Source: an uncultured marine group I thaumarchaeote
GTDB lineage: Archaea; Thermoproteota; Nitrososphaeria; Nitrososphaerales; Nitrosopumilaceae
Assembly (NCBI GenBank): GCA_902566725.1
Contig: CACFJZ010000001.1
Location: forward strand, 1-64,000
DNA: 64,000 nt
Direction: 5' to 3'
Shown here: positions 46,310-53,596 of the stretch, one piece after another
How positions within the stretch are numbered: the first letter of the stretch is position 1
How the letters are laid out: each line of letters opens with the position of its first letter
Notes under the pieces: generated by a model
What the model was told of the DNA's origin: nothing
Database searches by the model: none
Seen by the model: the letters and a program-made list of their open reading frames with translations, nothing else
Made by a program: the position numbers and the translations under genes

Positions 46310-47323
46310 TTATAGTCTGTTAGTAATTTCTTTGGTAAATTCCTGCGTGGATTTTTCTCCACCAATATCTTTAGTGGTAATGCCAGATTTGATTAAATCC
46401 AGGACAACATCTTCAAGTTTTTTTCCAGCAGAAATACAATCTGAATCATTATTTTTTGAACCTAACCAATCAAGCATCATTTTTGTAGATAAGATGAATG
46501 AAGATGGATTTGCAATTTGTTTTCCAGCAATATCAAATGCCGCACCATGAACTGGCTCAAACAAGCCAAAATTATCTCCCAAATTGGCTGCAGGTGCCAT
46601 ACCTAATCCACCTACAACTTGTGAGGATTCATCAGATAAAATATCACCAAACAAATTCGTAGTCACAATTACATCAAATTCATGAGGAGAACGAATTAAG
46701 TTCATTGAGCATGCATCGACATACATCTGATCAAATGTGACGTCAGGGTAATCTTTTGAAACATCCTCACATGCACGGGAAAATAGACCGTCAGTCATCT
46801 TCATGACATTGGATTTATGTACACATGTAACACGTTTTTGCTGATTTCTATCCATTGCAGTTTCAAAGGCATATTTTGCAATTCGTTTAGAAGCCTTTTC
46901 ACTAATAATTCTTAATGCCACAGCAGTATCATCAACTTGGAACTCTTGACCAGTGTAAAGATCTTCAGTGTTTTCTCTAACAATTACTAAATCAATATCA
47001 TCTCTTAATGCAGGAGTGTTTGGATACGATTTTGCAGGACGAATGTTTGCATAGAGATCTAATTTTTGTCTTAATGCAACAATAACATCTTTAGCACTTT
47101 CGCCAACAGGAGCTTTCAAACATGCATCAGATGATTTAATTGATTCAAAAACATCATCAGGCAATGCATTGCCTGTTTTTTCAAGTGCGCGGTCACCAGC
47201 TACAAGAGAAGTTACATTAAATTTTACATTTAATTTGTCATGAATTGAATCCAAAATTGTTTTTACAGATTCAGATAATTCAGGACCAATCCCATCACCA
47301 GTAATTAACGAAATATTATACAT
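46310..47323 (-). CDS. leuB: 3-isopropylmalate dehydrogenase-like enzyme
   Basis: NAD-dependent beta-decarboxylating dehydrogenase of 337 residues. It has the 'ITGDGIGPEL' start (about residues 6-15), the substrate Arg block 'DLYANIRPAKSYPN', 'RENTEDLYTG' and the C-terminal metal-site 'DILSDESSQVVGGLG' and 'FEPVHGAAFDIAGK'. Position after leuA makes 3-isopropylmalate dehydrogenase the best reading; homoisocitrate or isocitrate specificity is possible by sequence alone. It is the last gene of the branched-chain amino-acid run. Confidence 0.9.
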   Translation of the reverse strand: MYNISLITGDGIGPELSESVKTILDSIHDKLNVKFNVTSLVAGDRALEKTGNALPDDVFESIKSSDACLKAPVGESAKDVIVALRQKLDLYANIRPAKSYPNTPALRDDIDLVIVRENTEDLYTGQEFQVDDTAVALRIISEKASKRIAKYAFETAMDRNQQKRVTCVHKSNVMKMTDGLFSRACEDVSKDYPDVTFDQMYVDACSMNLIRSPHEFDVIVTTNLFGDILSDESSQVVGGLGMAPAANLGDNFGLFEPVHGAAFDIAGKQIANPSSFILSTKMMLDWLGSKNNDSDCISAGKKLEDVVLDLIKSGITTKDIGGEKSTQEFTKEITNRL

Positions 47324-47350: not shown

Positions 47351-48874
47351 TTAAATCTTTTTTTCCTTTAGAAGATTTTTTAACATTATGCGATTAATTC
47401 CGTCAACCATAGCTTGTACACTTGTTGTAACAATATCTTCACCTACAGATTTAGAAGAAATTATGTTACCACGTGCATCTTCAACTTTTACAGTTACTTC
47501 ACATAATGCATTAGCACCACCAGAAATAGAATCTAACTTGTATTCTTTTAGTCTAACTTCATCGGTGATTTGACTGGTAATTTTTTGAATTGCATTTAAT
47601 GCAGCATCCACAGGACCTACACCGTAATCAGTTGCAGAAAATTCTTGGCCATCGACATTTAATTTTACAAATGCATAAGGCATTGTTCCAACACCAGTAG
47701 AAACAGAAAATCCTGCCAACTGAACAATTCGTTTTAATTTATTTTCACCAATTACCTCGTTTGCCATAGATAATAATTCAACTTCAGTTACTTGTTTGCC
47801 TTGATCACCTAATGCTTTGACTTTATCCAAGATTTGTTTTGTTTGTTCATCATTTGGTTCAATGCCATATTCTTTGAGCATTGCATTCATGCCGTGAATT
47901 CCAGCATGTTTTCCCACCTGTAACCAGCGAGTCCTACCTACAATTTCAGGACTAATTGGCTCATATGTTAAAGGATTATTCAATACGCCATGAGTATGGA
48001 TTCCAGATTCATGTCCAAAGGCGTTTTCTCCAACAATTGCTTTGTTTGGTTGTACAGACATTCCTGCTAATTTGGAGATGTATCTTGAAGTTTCATAGAT
48101 TAATTTTGTATTGATATTGGTTTCCCAAGTATTTTCAAATTGTAAACTGTGTAATGCCATAACAAATTCTTCTAAAGATGCGTTTCCTGCACGTTCACCA
48201 ATTCCATTGATAGTTACATGTGCACATGATGCGCCTGCCTGTACACCAGATATTGCATTTGCCACGGCTAATCCAAAATCATTATGACAGTGAACACTAA
48301 TTGGTAACTTTGATACTTCAATCGCATCTTTAGTTATTTCACCAATGTATTGAGGAGTTGAATAGCCAACAGTATCAGGAATATCAATTCTATCAGCACC
48401 AGCGCTAGCAACAGCACCAAAAACTTTTTTCAAAAATTCCCTATCAGTTCTTGTTGCATCTTCTGCAGAAAATTCTACTTGTAACCCACGTGATTTTCCA
48501 TATTCAACGGCTTCAATTGCTTTTTCTAAAGCTTCATCTCGAGACATTTTCAATTTATGTTCAAGGTGAATATCAGAAGTTGCAATGAATGTATGAATAT
48601 AGTTTAATCCACAGTCTACAGCAGCATCAATATCTTTTTTATTAGTTCGTGCTAATCCACATAATTCTGCCTTTAATCCATCACCAACAATTGCTTTTAC
48701 TCCTTCACGTTCTCCTTCAGAAATTACAGGAAATCCGGTTTCAATTGCATCTACACCTAACTCGTCAAGTTTTCTTGCAATGTTTAATTTTTTTTCAGGA
48801 GATAATGAGACTCCAGGAGATTGCTCACCGTCACGTAAAGTTGTATCAAAAATTCTAATGTTCGTGTTCTTCAC
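47351..48874 (-). CDS. leuA: 2-isopropylmalate synthase
   Basis: Condenses acetyl-CoA with 2-ketoisovalerate, the first committed step of leucine synthesis. The 507-residue protein starts at the conserved 'IRIFDTTLRDGEQSPG', has the metal-binding 'HCHNDFGLAVAN', 'GERAGNASLEE' and a C-terminal LeuA regulatory domain (about 390-500, 'LAGFSVSTGVGTMPYAFVKL') that mediates leucine feedback in the family. GTG at 48874 is chosen; the frame is open to a TTG at 48940 but those residues fall inside ilvN and do not match the family. Its first 20 bases overlap the end of ilvN. Confidence 0.95.
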   Translation of the reverse strand: MKNTNIRIFDTTLRDGEQSPGVSLSPEKKLNIARKLDELGVDAIETGFPVISEGEREGVKAIVGDGLKAELCGLARTNKKDIDAAVDCGLNYIHTFIATSDIHLEHKLKMSRDEALEKAIEAVEYGKSRGLQVEFSAEDATRTDREFLKKVFGAVASAGADRIDIPDTVGYSTPQYIGEITKDAIEVSKLPISVHCHNDFGLAVANAISGVQAGASCAHVTINGIGERAGNASLEEFVMALHSLQFENTWETNINTKLIYETSRYISKLAGMSVQPNKAIVGENAFGHESGIHTHGVLNNPLTYEPISPEIVGRTRWLQVGKHAGIHGMNAMLKEYGIEPNDEQTKQILDKVKALGDQGKQVTEVELLSMANEVIGENKLKRIVQLAGFSVSTGVGTMPYAFVKLNVDGQEFSATDYGVGPVDAALNAIQKITSQITDEVRLKEYKLDSISGGANALCEVTVKVEDARGNIISSKSVGEDIVTTSVQAMVDGINRIMLKNLLKEKKI

Positions 48875-49346
48875 GCTCCAATGCAGTAATGCCAGTTCGT
48901 GCCATCTCTTTAATTCCAAATTTCTTTGCCAATTCTTCAAAGGCAGATATTTGGTGAGGTGTTGCAGTCATTTCAACTATAATGGATTCTTTTTTTGCGT
49001 CATGAGTTTTTGCAGAATATGCACTGGCTAATTTATTAATTTCCATGCTATCTTCTGGTTTACTTACTTTAATCTTAAACATTACCAACTCTCTATATAC
49101 GGAGTTATTCACATCTAACCTACGAACCTCAATTGTGTCAATCATTTTGTCAAGTTGTTTGACGATTTGAGTGATTTGCTTCTCGTCACCTATTGTAGTG
49201 ATTGTCATTCTAGAGTATTTTTTGTCTTCAGTGACACCTACAGAGATACTATCGATGTTAAAGTTACGTGATCTAAAAAGATGTGTAACCTTAAACAAAA
49301 TTCCCGGTTTATTTTCTACTTTAATTGATAATATTGCCCAGACCAT
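48855..49346 (-). CDS. ilvN: Acetolactate synthase small (regulatory) subunit
   Basis: The 163-residue regulatory subunit binds valine or another branched-chain amino acid. The N-terminal ACT domain (about 1-75) has 'LSIKVENKPGILFKVTHLFR' and 'RNFNIDSISVGVTED', and the C-terminal domain runs from about 85 onward. It follows ilvB by 9 bases and overlaps leuA by 20, so ilvB-ilvN-leuA-leuB are one transcription unit. Confidence 0.95.
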   Translation of the reverse strand: MVWAILSIKVENKPGILFKVTHLFRSRNFNIDSISVGVTEDKKYSRMTITTIGDEKQITQIVKQLDKMIDTIEVRRLDVNNSVYRELVMFKIKVSKPEDSMEINKLASAYSAKTHDAKKESIIVEMTATPHQISAFEELAKKFGIKEMARTGITALEREEHEH

Positions 49347-49355
49347 TTTACATCA

Positions 49356-51065
49356 CTATGAAGGTAATATCATATCCTTTAATCCAGTTCCAGGTGCAAC
49401 AAATGGTAAAACATCTTCTTCAGGATCAATTGGGATGTCAATTACAGTTGCGACATCGCTGTTTAATCCATCTTTGATTGCTTTTTCAAGCTCATCCATT
49501 GATTGTGCACGTATTCCTTGTGCGCCGTATGATTCAGCTAATTTAACATAATCAGGACATTTCTTAAGATCAACACCAACCATTCTGCGGTCATAGAAAG
49601 TTCGCTGCCATTGTGCAACCATTCCTAATGAATAATTATTAATCAAGAATACAATTACAGGTAAGTCTTCTAAGACAGCAGTTGCAAGTGAATGTTCAGT
49701 CATGTTAAAGCTACCATCACCTGCAATGTCAACAACAGGTACATCAGGACGTGCAGTTTTTGCACCAATAGCAGCTGGAAATCCCCAACCCATAGTTCCT
49801 AAACCGGTAGAACTAAAGAAAGTTCCAGGATGTATGGCGTCAAAGAATAATGATGCCCACATTTGATGTTGTCCAACTTCAGTTGTAACAATAGATTCCT
49901 TAGGAAGTAATTCTCTTAATTTTCTAAGGATTTTTGCAGCACCCATTTCGCCAGGATGTAATTTTAAATTTTCACGCCAATATTGTTTTGTTTCTTTTAC
50001 ATGTTTTAACCAAGGATTGTCATCTGAAGGTCTAACAGCTTTATCCATCAATAATTTACCAAATATTCTCAATGAGGTACGTACATCACCTACTACGGCA
50101 ACAGAAGTTGTTTGATTCTTACCAATTTCTGCAGGATCAACATCCATATGAATAATCTTCAAGTTCTTTTCAAATTCTTCAAAAGTGCCAACAGAACGGT
50201 CTGAGAATCTTGTTCCAATTGCTAAAACACAATCAGCCTCAGTCATTAATTTATTAGCTTCAGCATGACCATGCATTCCAATTGGACCTAACGATAAAGG
50301 ATGGTCTTCAGGGAATGCACCTTTTCCTTTGAATGTAGTCACAACAGGAATCATTAGTAATTCAGCAATTGATTGTAATTCTGCAAATGCTGATGAAATA
50401 ATTACACCACCGCCTGCAAGAATAATTGGTTTTTGAGCAGATAACAATAATTCTACTGCACGTGCAGTATTTTGCATATCAGGATCAGTCCATGGATGAT
50501 AACCGGGTACTCTAACTTCATCAGGAAATGGAATGTTAGCTTCATTTTGTTGGACATCTTTTGGGATATCTAATAGAACAGGTCCTGGACGTCCAGTTTC
50601 AGCAATGTAAAATCCTTGTTTTACCATAGTTGGAATTTCTTCAGGAGTTCTAGGTTGATATGAATATTTTAAAGCAGGATTTGCCATACCGATAATATCA
50701 CTTTCTTGGAATGCATCTTTTCCAATCATTGCCACAGGTACTTGTCCAGTAACTGCAACCATTGGAGCTGAATCTGCCTGAGCAGTTGCAATTCCAGTTA
50801 AGAGATTTGTTGCACCAGGTCCAGAAGTTGCAAAACATACACCAGGTTTTCTGCTAACTCTACCAAAACCATCTGCCATATGAGCAGCAGATTGTTCATG
50901 TCTTACCAAAATATGACGAATGTTACTTTTTCCCAATTCATCATACATTGGAAGGTTCGCACCTCCCGGTAGACCGAAGACTTCCTTTACTCCTTCTTTT
51001 TCCAATGCTTTCATAAGCGCAGTTGCGCCGATCATAGTTTCATTCATTTTATTATTATCACTCAT
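49356..51065 (-). CDS. ilvB: Acetolactate synthase large (catalytic) subunit
   Basis: ThDP- and FAD-dependent enzyme making 2-acetolactate from pyruvate, the first shared step of valine, leucine and isoleucine synthesis. The 569-residue protein has the catalytic Glu region 'HILVRHEQSAAHMADG', 'GVCFATSGPGATNLLTGIA', the ThDP/Mg motif 'GDGSFNMTEHSLATAVLEDL' and C-terminal 'GMVAQWQRTFYDRRM'. It is the first gene of the operon; a short branched-chain-rich reading frame lies 33 bases upstream (51099-51161). Confidence 0.97.
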   Translation of the reverse strand: MSDNNKMNETMIGATALMKALEKEGVKEVFGLPGGANLPMYDELGKSNIRHILVRHEQSAAHMADGFGRVSRKPGVCFATSGPGATNLLTGIATAQADSAPMVAVTGQVPVAMIGKDAFQESDIIGMANPALKYSYQPRTPEEIPTMVKQGFYIAETGRPGPVLLDIPKDVQQNEANIPFPDEVRVPGYHPWTDPDMQNTARAVELLLSAQKPIILAGGGVIISSAFAELQSIAELLMIPVVTTFKGKGAFPEDHPLSLGPIGMHGHAEANKLMTEADCVLAIGTRFSDRSVGTFEEFEKNLKIIHMDVDPAEIGKNQTTSVAVVGDVRTSLRIFGKLLMDKAVRPSDDNPWLKHVKETKQYWRENLKLHPGEMGAAKILRKLRELLPKESIVTTEVGQHQMWASLFFDAIHPGTFFSSTGLGTMGWGFPAAIGAKTARPDVPVVDIAGDGSFNMTEHSLATAVLEDLPVIVFLINNYSLGMVAQWQRTFYDRRMVGVDLKKCPDYVKLAESYGAQGIRAQSMDELEKAIKDGLNSDVATVIDIPIDPEEDVLPFVAPGTGLKDMILPS

Positions 51066-51084
51066 AATCCTAATTTAATCGTGT

Positions 51085-51144
51085 AATTGGCTGTATGTCT
51101 ACAGCAGCAGGTCAACTAGCAAGGTAATACCAAAAGTGCCAATT
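51085..51144 (-). promoter_or_regulatory. Possible attenuator-like alternative stems in the ilvB leader
   Basis: Two helices can form in the ilvB leader RNA and cannot both exist in full. Helix 1 pairs GCCAATT (plus 51085-51091 in complement) with AATTGGC (51138-51144), 7 bp. Helix 2 is a 6-bp hairpin GCTGTA-GACA-TACAGC (arms 51090-51095 and 51100-51105). They share bases 51090-51091. The hairpin contains the UAG stop of the short leader frame, so a ribosome there would influence it. Pairing is seen in sequence; any regulatory role is inferred. Confidence 0.35.
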
Positions 51145-51161
51145 GTTGCTTGTTGTTGCAT
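51099..51161 (-). CDS. Putative branched-chain leader peptide upstream of ilvB (20 aa)
   Basis: An ATG frame of 20 codons on the minus strand, starting MQQQ and ending ITLLVDLLL before UAG; seven of the last nine residues are Ile, Leu or Val, the end-products of the operon it precedes. A TATA element (51189-51194) is centred about 30 nt before this ATG. The frame is also open from an upstream ATG at 51197 (32 codons). Its stop is 33 bases from the ilvB start. This looks like an attenuator leader, but such peptides are not established in archaea and chance cannot be excluded. Confidence 0.35.
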   Translation of the reverse strand: MQQQATIGTFGITLLVDLLL

Positions 51162-51188
51162 AGTAAATTCAAAATTAGGAGATGCACC

Positions 51189-51194
51189 TATAAA
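51189..51194. promoter_or_regulatory. TATA element between the ilv operon and the 51221 gene
   Basis: TATAAA (TTTATA on the minus strand, preceded there by the purine-rich AAAAAGGAATG, a plausible BRE). Its centre lies about 30 nt from the leader-peptide ATG at 51161 and about 30 nt from the ATG at 51221. One element could therefore serve both directions. Confidence 0.45.
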
Positions 51195-51220
51195 CATTCC
51201 TTTTTGAGAAATGGTATAAC

Positions 51221-51625
51221 ATGTCAGAGCAAGAAGAAATTATCAGAATCATTGAGACATTCTTTGAGATTGGGAAATCAAAAAAACTAGAGATTCTAAA
51301 AGACATTCAAGTGAATGATTCATCATTTTCAAGTTTTAGTGATGTTCCACCATATGATCTAAAAGACTATGCAACAACTATAGCATTAGAAGAATTACGA
51401 TTTGTCAGCATATCAGACTATGATTATAAAATAAACAATACCAAAATAAGCATATTTGGAGATACTGCAGTAGTTGCTTTAGAATTAGTTCAAAAAGGAA
51501 TGCTTGTGGATAACAAAGCATTCACAGGAGAACATATTACAATTGGAGGAAGAGCAACCTTTGTCTTAATTAAAAAGCCAACATGGAAAATAGTCCATAT
51601 TCATTTGTCAAAGTTAGATAATTAG
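51221..51625 (+). CDS. SnoaL/NTF2-like protein
   Basis: A 134-residue single-domain protein with the NTF2-like pattern: an N-terminal helix (EEIIRIIETFFEIGKSKKLE), an early 'FSSFSDVPPYDLKDY' segment, then strands 'TKISIFGDTAVVALELVQKG' and 'GGRATFVLIKKPTWKIVHIH'. Relatives of SnoaL and ketosteroid isomerase bind varied small molecules; the substrate is unknown. It is divergent from the ilv operon and overlaps the convergent aldolase gene by 4 bases. Confidence 0.78.
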   Translation: MSEQEEIIRIIETFFEIGKSKKLEILKDIQVNDSSFSSFSDVPPYDLKDYATTIALEELRFVSISDYDYKINNTKISIFGDTAVVALELVQKGMLVDNKAFTGEHITIGGRATFVLIKKPTWKIVHIHLSKLDN

Positions 51626-52524
51626 TTACGTTTTTTTGATTTTTTATTAGAGTTCTTTTTTTGTTTGTTGTTTTGTTTGTTGTTTTGTTTGTTGTTTTGT
51701 TTGTTGTTTTGTTTGTTGTTTTTTGATTTTTGATTTGGTTTACCAGACAATTGTTTGTATAATGCAAATGCTTGATCAGCATTGTTACTTCCATGTACTA
51801 TTGAATGAACTGCTTTAATCATTGCAACAGGGTTTTCAGATTGCCAAATATTACGTCCCATATCTACACCAACTGCACCTGCTTTTAGAGCATCATAAGT
51901 TAGTTTTAGAGCATCTTTTTCAGGGATTTTTTTGCCACCTGCAATTATTATTGGAACAGGACATGAATTTACAACTTTTTCAAAGTTTTCACAATAGTAT
52001 GTTTTAACAATATGTGCGCCTTGTTCAGCAGCTGTCCTACATGCAAGGGAAAGATATCGAGCATCTTTGGTTCCTATTTCTTTTCCTACAGCTGTTACAG
52101 CTAAAACAGGAATTCCATATTCTTCAGCTTCATTAACTAACTTTCCAAGATTTACAATTGTTTGATATTCATATTTTGAGCCAACAAATATTGACATTGC
52201 AACTGCAGAAACATTTAGTCGTAAAGCATCTTTTATGCTGACGGTAATATCCTCTTGAGATAGATCTTCACCAATAATGCTAGTACCTCCAGAAACACGT
52301 AATACGATAGGTACAGGATAATCAGGATTTACAGAAGTTCTTAATGCACCACGAGTAATCATTAATGAATCACAATGCTTTGCCAATGGAGCGATTGTTT
52401 TTTTCAGGTCTTCTAGTTTTTCAGTTGGTCCTAAGAAATAACCATGATCAACTGCAAGCATTAATGCACGATTATCTGCAGGAGTGATTATTCTTGCAAT
52501 TCTATTTTTTAAGCCCCAGTCCAT
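51622..52524 (-). CDS. Class I aldolase (DhnA/FbaB/LsrF-like) with a repeat-encoded basic tail
   Basis: A TIM-barrel class I aldolase of the archaeal DhnA type, possible substrates being fructose-1,6-bisphosphate or the shikimate precursor made by ADH synthase. The core (about 1-255) has 'LMLAVDHGYFLGP', the Schiff-base Lys in 'HIVKTYYCENF' and 'VGVDMGRNIWQSENP'. The last ~45 residues are an Asn/Lys/Gln tail with repeated NNKQ units from a 12-bp tandem repeat. I use ATG at 52524 (MDWGLKNRI); upstream residues to the TTG at 52578 overlap the next gene. Family relatives normally end soon after the barrel. Confidence 0.85.
   Translation of the reverse strand: MDWGLKNRIARIITPADNRALMLAVDHGYFLGPTEKLEDLKKTIAPLAKHCDSLMITRGALRTSVNPDYPVPIVLRVSGGTSIIGEDLSQEDITVSIKDALRLNVSAVAMSIFVGSKYEYQTIVNLGKLVNEAEEYGIPVLAVTAVGKEIGTKDARYLSLACRTAAEQGAHIVKTYYCENFEKVVNSCPVPIIIAGGKKIPEKDALKLTYDALKAGAVGVDMGRNIWQSENPVAMIKAVHSIVHGSNNADQAFALYKQLSGKPNQKSKNNKQNNKQNNKQNNKQNNKQKKNSNKKSKKRN
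51663..51722 (-). repeat. Five perfect tandem copies of a 12-bp unit in the aldolase gene
   Basis: The unit gtttgttgtttt occurs five times in a row with no mismatch (60 bp). It encodes the K-Q-N-N repeat of the aldolase tail. The unit length is a multiple of three, so copy-number slippage keeps the frame. Confidence 0.95.
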
Positions 52525-52567
52525 TTTCTTATTTTGTTGAAAAAAAATTGCCTTTCTTAAGCCTTTC

Positions 52568-53596
52568 TTAGTTCTCAATAATTATTTTCATGGCATTATC
52601 GCCAGTTTTTGCATGTTCAAATGCTTTTTGGGATTCCTCTAAGGAATATTTGTGAGTGATGAGAGATTTTACATCAACATTTCCTGACGATATTAATTCA
52701 AGAGCTTCTTTTGTGTCATGATCAGATGCAGCATAAGTTGTGACGATACTAATTTCTTTAGAATAAACAAGACTCATATCAATTTCAGTGGTTGCACCTT
52801 TATTTGGCACACCAAACATTACAACGGTTCCACCTTTTCTTACAAGTTTTAGAGCATCCTGAAATGCATGTAAGCTACTAGTTGCAACTATTGCAACATC
52901 AACACCAATACTTGTTTCATCGTGAATTTTTTCTGCTAATTTAGGATCATCAGAACGAATTGACGTGACATTGAATTTTTTTACAAAATCTAGTCTAAAG
53001 TCATTTAAGTCCATACAGAATATTTTTGAGAAACCAAATGATTTAGCAAGTAAAACATGCATCATGCCAGTTGGACCAACACCCAATATTGCAGCCGTAT
53101 CATTTTTTTGATATTTGAACTTGGACCAAGCACGAACACAGCATGCAAATGGTTCAATTAAAGCAGCTTCTTCATAGGATACATGTTCAGGTAATTTCAA
53201 GACACCGCCATGAATTACATTCCATTCAGGTACAACGTAATTATCAGCAAGACCGCATGGGTTCAAATTTGATTCATAGTATTTTTTACACATAGTTTCA
53301 TTTCCATGACTGCATTCATGACAATCTTTTGAATAACATGCAACATGATGATGAGTAAAAACACGATCTCCTATTTTAAAATCAGAAATATTACTTCCAA
53401 TCTTTATAACTTCACCTGCAGGTTCATGACCTAACCGCATTGATGGTTGACCATATTTTCCAAATACTTTTTCAACATCAGAGCCACAAATTCCACATGA
53501 TTGCATTTTTATCAATAATTCATTAGGTTTTAAATCAGAGATATCAAAATCTTCTATTTCGATTTTTGAGTTACCTTTTACAACAGCTGCTTTCAT
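52568..53596 (-). CDS. Zinc-dependent alcohol dehydrogenase (MDR family)
   Basis: A 342-residue medium-chain dehydrogenase. Catalytic zinc ligands are Cys in 'CGICGSDVEKVFG' (about 34-46), His in 'RLGHEPAGE' and Glu in 'EEAALIEPFACCVRAW'; the structural-zinc lobe has CYSKDCHECSHGNETMC (about 88-105). The cofactor site is 'AAILGVGPTGMMHVLLAK' with the Rossmann GVGPTG. The substrate is unknown; sorbitol, threonine and other polyol dehydrogenases are relatives. It lies upstream of the aldolase on the same strand, so a joint sugar or polyol step is possible (inferred). Confidence 0.92.
   Translation of the reverse strand: MKAAVVKGNSKIEIEDFDISDLKPNELLIKMQSCGICGSDVEKVFGKYGQPSMRLGHEPAGEVIKIGSNISDFKIGDRVFTHHHVACYSKDCHECSHGNETMCKKYYESNLNPCGLADNYVVPEWNVIHGGVLKLPEHVSYEEAALIEPFACCVRAWSKFKYQKNDTAAILGVGPTGMMHVLLAKSFGFSKIFCMDLNDFRLDFVKKFNVTSIRSDDPKLAEKIHDETSIGVDVAIVATSSLHAFQDALKLVRKGGTVVMFGVPNKGATTEIDMSLVYSKEISIVTTYAASDHDTKEALELISSGNVDVKSLITHKYSLEESQKAFEHAKTGDNAMKIIIEN

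Follow-up and report, generated by a model that had tools for sequence, protein, structure and literature searches.

A leader frame ending in isoleucine, leucine and valine codons upstream of the ilvB operon of a marine thaumarchaeote: a probable leader-peptide attenuator

The window analysed, i.e., the whole stretch of 64,000 nt from a contig of an uncultured marine group I thaumarchaeote, carries on its minus strand a group of four genes of branched-chain amino-acid synthesis. The ilvB gene (49356–51065, start possibly at 51047) encodes the acetolactate synthase large subunit and ilvN (48855–49346) the small subunit, according to the models TIGR00118 and TIGR00119, respectively, both above cut-off. 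They are followed by leuA, encoding 2-isopropylmalate synthase (47351–48868, start approximate; PRK00915 models above cut-off), and by a leuB-like gene of an isopropylmalate/isohomocitrate-type dehydrogenase (46310–47323), for which the best hit, TIGR02088, scored 397.5 bits, just below the cut-off of 409.8. In addition, the minus strand at 51625–52578 encodes an aldolase-family protein (best NCBIfam model PRK08227) that has a low-complexity C-terminal tail with repeated NKQN units and lysines.

A leader frame of 20 codons, MQQQATIGTFGITLLVDLLL (51099–51161, minus strand), was identified upstream of ilvB by sequence and comparative scans. It begins with ATG at 51161 and ends with TAG at 51101–51099, which leaves 33 nt to the ilvB ATG at 51065. 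A preliminary description of this DNA, made from the sequence alone, had reported the frame with this length and this gap, and re-reading of the sequence showed its coordinates to be correct. The same description had pointed to the composition of the frame end, where seven of the final nine residues, I-T-L-L-V-D-L-L-L (51102–51128, minus strand), are indeed isoleucine, leucine or valine (I/L/V). These putative control codons, marked out by sequence and by a rare-codon preference in the genus, include the leucine codons TTG CTA CTG CTG CTG, and they match the products of the four-gene operon.

The predicted promoter of the leader, P1, is the TATA-like box TTTATA (51189–51194, minus strand), recognised by sequence and by the position of such boxes in relatives; its centre is located ~30 nt before the leader ATG. 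Of 109 leaders, nearly all have a TATA-like box 24–36 nt ahead of the frame, compared with 1% of control windows. From the position of the box, the mRNA start is predicted ~0–8 nt before the leader AUG, so the transcript would be leaderless. A candidate second promoter, P2 (TTAAATTAG; 51070–51078, minus strand), was located by reference to P2-like boxes of relatives and lies ~27 nt before the ATG at 51047. The conserved form of this box, TTAAAATTATGG or TTTAAATTA, is found 28–29 nt before an ilvB ATG in most genomes of groups g1, g11 and g14 (19/22 in g1, 13/13 in g11, 64/72 in g14 and others), and in all 13 genomes of the g14 group that have lost the leader. The P2 of the window is one base shorter than that of relatives and so a weaker match, and the pattern used to score the relatives' P2-like boxes does not match it. 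From sequence and spacing, we infer that P2 is a promoter. Clades without P2 (g15 and its allies, g16, g21 and most of f3 and f5) have a Shine-Dalgarno motif before ilvB instead, as would be expected if ilvB were read there only from the long P1 transcript. Since the P2 box of relatives stands 28–29 nt before the same codon, and the upstream ATG is absent in G001, a complete genome of the same genus, ilvB probably starts at 51047 (ATGAATGAAACTATG) and not at 51065.

The rarity of such a frame was first of all a question for a single genome. A scan of 1.2 Mb of the 1.23-Mb G001 genome for short frames 5–100 nt upstream of genes gave 928 frames, none of which had seven I/L/V among the final nine residues; 11 reached six of nine, and two of these were nested forms of the ilvB leader itself. 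Scanning the same G001 frames for other residues gave nothing striking. The doubt left by this single genome was removed by the data from relatives. A qualifying frame, defined by an ATG start, a length of 12–26 codons and at least five I/L/V among the final eight codons, was present in 115 of 164 ilvB upstream regions, mainly of Nitrosopumilaceae and Nitrososphaeraceae, whereas dinucleotide shuffles gave a mean of 2.3 and a maximum of 5. In deeper-branching families and orders, the leader was found in 17 of 22 genomes against 0.95 expected from shuffles. Lack of conservation had been named in the preliminary description as the outcome that would refute the proposal, and the frame proved to be kept across the class. 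These counts come from related genomes and hence are not independent events; the leaders, selected genome by genome on score, include a few uncertain ones (g24 of f3, some f1 genera).

I/L/V account for 74% of the final eight leader codons when these are read in frame, and for 21% and 12% when they are read in the two alternative frames. The share reaches 83–91% at codons −1, −2, −3 and −5 from the stop and is mostly below 30% from codon −10 upstream. Endings such as LLVDLVL, LPVVLL, LVLLLLA or similar are found in relatives. Examples of the predicted peptides are MSTTITGKLGVLLLVDLVL (g11), MTKVDSTSISSILLLVELVL (Nitrosotalea), MTIYSSTALAVLLPVELVL (Nitrosotenuis), MSTKLTGTFGKDLPIVVLL (g14, Nitrosopumilus group) and MPHTGSERSRHKVKILVLLLLA (f3, which we take to be the Nitrososphaera family); MNTIKREAQLKVAELLRESLVIVILIK and MDKRLSLTRLLNIDVLVVPLLVLLL come from deep lineages.

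Several genera have no leader. The same scan found no comparable leader upstream of ilvB in five regions from Methanosarcinales and one from Methanomethylicota, and no leader of such type was found at ilvC, ilvD, hisG or trpE in ten genomes examined. In 13 g14-type genomes (L131, L138, L140, L148, L150, L151, L154, L156, L158, L161, L163, L165 and L175), the leader has been lost and the P2-like box alone remains, 28–29 nt before ilvB, with no Shine-Dalgarno motif before this gene; this is an apparent loss of regulation in some marine lineages.

Codon choice in the leaders was compared with that of the genome. CTG makes up 56% of leucine codons in g1 leaders versus 3.5% in the G001 genome, and TTA 2.6% versus 40%; the CTG figure is to be read with the fact that the final CTG of each g1 leader also belongs to the hairpin at the stop (hairpin B, below). 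The third-base G+C content of the other leader codons (0.20) is close to the genomic value (0.16), so the CTG excess is not a general composition effect. The pN/pS ratio of the leaders was 0.67–0.96 outside the f3 group and 0.22 within it. The exact peptide is thus loosely held, with the I/L/V class and its position next to the stop retained, as is more in keeping with a sensor than with a protein that has a task of its own.

The RNA of the leader can form several helices. Within the frame itself lies a 9-bp helix, helix A, the 5′ arm of which (segment 1, CAATTGGCA; 51137–51145, minus strand) pairs with a 3′ arm (segment 2, TGCTAGTTG; 51113–51121, minus strand), so that 51145–51137 are bound to 51121–51113 and Thr/Ser/Ile codons to the Leu-Leu-Val-Asp codons. 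This helix had been missed in the preliminary description and is stronger than the 7-bp helix proposed there. Among 27 distinct sequences (g1, g2, g15, g18, g6 and g20), 87% of cells are paired and one double change from A-U to G-C occurs, probably reflecting one or few evolutionary events. None of 500 shuffles reached the covariation score or the double-change count, and RNAalifold predicts helix A unaided. Against synonymous-codon nulls, the helix shows only mild extra stability (mean z −0.64). The corresponding helix of g14 (GGCAA/TTGCC, GACAA/TTGTC) is less well supported, and RNAalifold predicted no structure in the g14 leader alignment.

The 7-bp helix exists in the window, where AATTGGC (51144–51138) can pair with GCCAATT (51085–51091, minus strand). 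It competes with helix A for the same 5′ bases and, as previously described, shares two bases (51091–51090) with hairpin B, so its formation excludes both. It is perfect in the window lineage only; the nearest relatives have an A-C mismatch, other genera do not have it, and as a conserved competing element it was rejected. The search for covarying stems in relatives, suggested at the outset, had a divided outcome: helix A covaries, the 7-bp helix is not kept, and the arms of hairpin B are nearly invariant.

Hairpin B consists of the 5′ arm GCTGTA (51100–51105), which includes the final Leu codon and bases of the stop, and the 3′ arm TACAGC (51090–51095), both on the minus strand. The 6-bp hairpin around the UAG that had been noted earlier is thus real (51105–51100 with 51095–51090). 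Its ACAGC is retained amid otherwise variable spacers, and loop lengths differ. The position at the stop is conserved; proof by covariation was not obtained within the window's own group, since the arms vary too little in g1, g15 and g16 for covariation to be informative. RNAalifold predicted nothing in the stop-hairpin alignment, and in g14 hairpin B is not above chance. The signal is weaker in the window genus than in the deep lineages, 15 loci of which have a stable stop hairpin (mean z −2.6), with a Fisher combined p of ~1e-12 that is indicative because these loci are related. The hairpins of the deep lineages begin at or just after the leader stop and are unrelated in sequence; those of L340 and L341 are distinguished by a compensatory A-U/G-C change.

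As stated in the preliminary description, no poly-T follows hairpin B in the window, and the same is true of most lineages. The hairpin is followed by a U-tract in L353 and g16 and in some members of g15 and g1; the window and most deep lineages have none. As the window has no intrinsic terminator, its locus is not classed among the classical transcription attenuators, although it would work like one. In L340, L347 and L351, inspection by eye found the hairpin loop to be complementary to the ilvB Shine-Dalgarno motif (e.g., CACCTC with GAGGTG in L340), a possible pairing that is not general. No hairpin separates the leader stop from the ilvB Shine-Dalgarno motif in L354 and L356, where the two overlap or abut (TTTAGGAGGTGATGG), and direct translational coupling is possible in these lineages.

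Taken together, these features make it likely that the leader is a cis-acting leader-peptide attenuator sensing charged Leu, Val and Ile tRNA and controlling ilvB-ilvN-leuA-leuB. The proposal of an attenuator made in the preliminary description is upheld in part, by the conserved I/L/V leader, its own TATA-like box and the rare Leu codons; the exact competing structures named there were not supported. The P1 transcript would begin at or a few nucleotides before the leader AUG. With an ample supply of branched-chain amino acids, the ribosome would pass the Leu and Val codons, reach the UAG and depart, after which helix A and hairpin B would fold and give the OFF state. Under scarcity, the ribosome would stall on the Leu-Leu-Val or Leu-Leu-Leu codons and mask one arm of each helix, the 3′ arm in helix A and the 5′ arm in hairpin B, so that hairpin B could not fold and the operon would be expressed. 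In the window lineage, if the stall occurred at the first Leu codons, segment 1 would remain unpaired and could bind GCCAATT, taking bases of the 3′ arm of hairpin B. This scheme includes steps that we infer, namely that the frame is translated, that ribosomes stall on it, that regulation has the sign given and that hairpin B acts as the OFF element. In genera with P2, the second promoter, downstream of hairpin B, would allow expression that bypasses the leader; a point against the attenuator is that P2 would weaken any control through P1.

The output of the attenuator may be transcription or translation, and lineages may differ in this respect. Translation of ilvB as the output, with the stop hairpin hindering ribosome entry or re-initiation at the nearby Shine-Dalgarno motif or start, seems a tenable though less probable form; it is a branch of the attenuator explanation with the same sensor, in which the stalled ribosome would remove the hairpin. 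It agrees with the lack of a U-tract after most hairpins, with hairpins ending a few nucleotides from the Shine-Dalgarno motif in L349, L350, L353 and g21, with the leader stop at this motif in L354 and L356, and with the complementary loops seen by eye in L340, L347 and L351. However, where a U-tract follows (L353, g16, some of g15 and g1), the hairpin resembles a terminator, pairing of loop and Shine-Dalgarno motif is not general, and simple re-initiation predicts the wrong sign under starvation.

Alternatively, the frame could be merely a ribosome loader or a 5′ stabiliser of a leaderless mRNA, which would suit the leaderless start and the downstream Shine-Dalgarno motif of P1-only clades, but the I/L/V identity, the placement next to the stop, the rare Leu codons and the absence of leaders at ilvC, ilvD, hisG and trpE would be left unexplained, and we consider it improbable. 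A small functional protein, such as a hydrophobic membrane peptide encoded fortuitously before ilvB, could explain the conserved frame and start and the pN/pS of 0.22 in f3; near-neutral evolution of the peptide outside the I/L/V class (pN/pS ~0.7–1 outside f3) and the rare codons make it unlikely. In addition, the hydrophobic block is usually 7–11 residues, short for a membrane helix, a hairpin adjoins the stop, and the leader is confined to ilvB. A chance frame beside a promoter is hardly credible: the three Leu codons that form one CTG run and the modest rarity in G001 (11/928 at six of nine) would permit it, but it is refuted by the shuffle controls (115/164 versus 2.3 and 17/22 versus 0.95) and by the frame specificity of 74% versus 21% and 12%.

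Amino-acid sensing by leader peptides is textbook bacterial regulation. In E. coli, ilvL, ivbL and leuL are leader-peptide attenuators located before biosynthetic operons and containing codons for the operon products, with rare leucine codons in leuL. The archaeal leader resembles them in its end-product control codons, its rare Leu codons (as in leuL) and its position before the operon. Unlike them, it has the control codons at the very end of the frame and not in the middle, and it has no conserved antiterminator and no consistent U-tract terminator. In E. coli pyrBI, the leader frame enters the hairpin, and ribosome occupancy alone blocks folding with no obligatory antiterminator. The archaeal frame likewise runs into a hairpin, the folding of which would be blocked by the ribosome with no antiterminator required, but the proposed signal is charged tRNA and not UTP-dependent polymerase pausing, and no U-tract is present in the window.

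Among described systems, the ilvB leaders of Actinobacteria (Corynebacterium, Mycobacterium, Streptomyces) come nearest in anatomy; their I/V/L codons overlap a hairpin that is a candidate terminator (PMC1262725). In the ilvBNC attenuator of C. glutamicum, three hairpins, an anti-antiterminator, an antiterminator and a terminator, compete (PMC11857589). The archaeal leader shares with the actinobacterial ones the short I/V/L frame upstream of ilvB and the overlap of codons with a hairpin, and the three C. glutamicum helices, with their shared GCC switch, have formal counterparts in the window (helix A, the 7-bp helix and hairpin B), including GGC/GCC. The likeness is one of anatomy alone, with no sequence relationship claimed. 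In contrast to C. glutamicum, the middle helix of the window is not conserved, and a terminator role of hairpin B is putative. Other differences from the actinobacterial leaders are the archaeal host, the TATA-type promoter, the predicted leaderless mRNA, the placement of the hairpin at the leader stop or beside it, in most cases with no U-tract, and the downstream P2 in many genera. The actinobacterial experiments are mixed and call for caution with the archaeal leader: codon substitutions in the S. coelicolor leader, as quoted in PMC1262725, were without effect, which is not classical attenuator behaviour, whereas terminator mutants of C. glutamicum ilvBNC did have an effect (PMC11857589).

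Of the marks of a bacterial attenuator, the locus has a leader frame with end-product codons directly upstream of the operon and conservation of this frame in relatives. An intrinsic terminator before the first gene is absent in the window and most deep lineages. As for mutually exclusive structures, covariation of helix A and the stop hairpin of the deep lineages were seen, and the exclusive 7-bp helix was seen in the window lineage only. A known riboswitch or Rfam leader was rejected, as Rfam covariance models gave no plausible match at 50900–51300, the best scores being far below gathering cut-offs. No report of an archaeal leader-peptide attenuator was found in the open-access PubMed Central literature, subscription papers being outside the scope of the search, which agrees with the earlier remark that such attenuation is not established in archaea. 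Ribo-seq of Methanosarcina mazei showed short frames in the 5′ regions of genes (PMC11456600); the main text of that paper contains no form of the word “attenuation”.

On balance, and with less assurance than for the attenuator itself, we favour an ancient, class-wide archaeal attenuation that acts on leaderless mRNAs through a hairpin placed at the stop of the leader. It would be independent of or far diverged from the bacterial systems, and in marine ammonia oxidisers a bypass promoter would have taken over part of its place. If this is true, leader-peptide stalling, perhaps with coupled transcription-translation, serves metabolic control in an archaeal group that ranks among the most abundant in ocean and soil, and the locus would be a compact system for testing transcription-translation coupling, for which the class-wide comparison supplies ready predictions for mutants. 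It would also give a regulatory reading to genes of 12–35 codons that annotation pipelines usually skip.

A separate conserved element was observed at another biosynthetic gene. In L333–L338, which represent several Nitrosopumilaceae genera, the strongly conserved sequence TATAAAGGTACCGTACYATACSGTAAT is located ~120–150 nt upstream of trpE. In this element a TATA box precedes an operator-like inverted repeat, an arrangement that suggests a trp repressor site.
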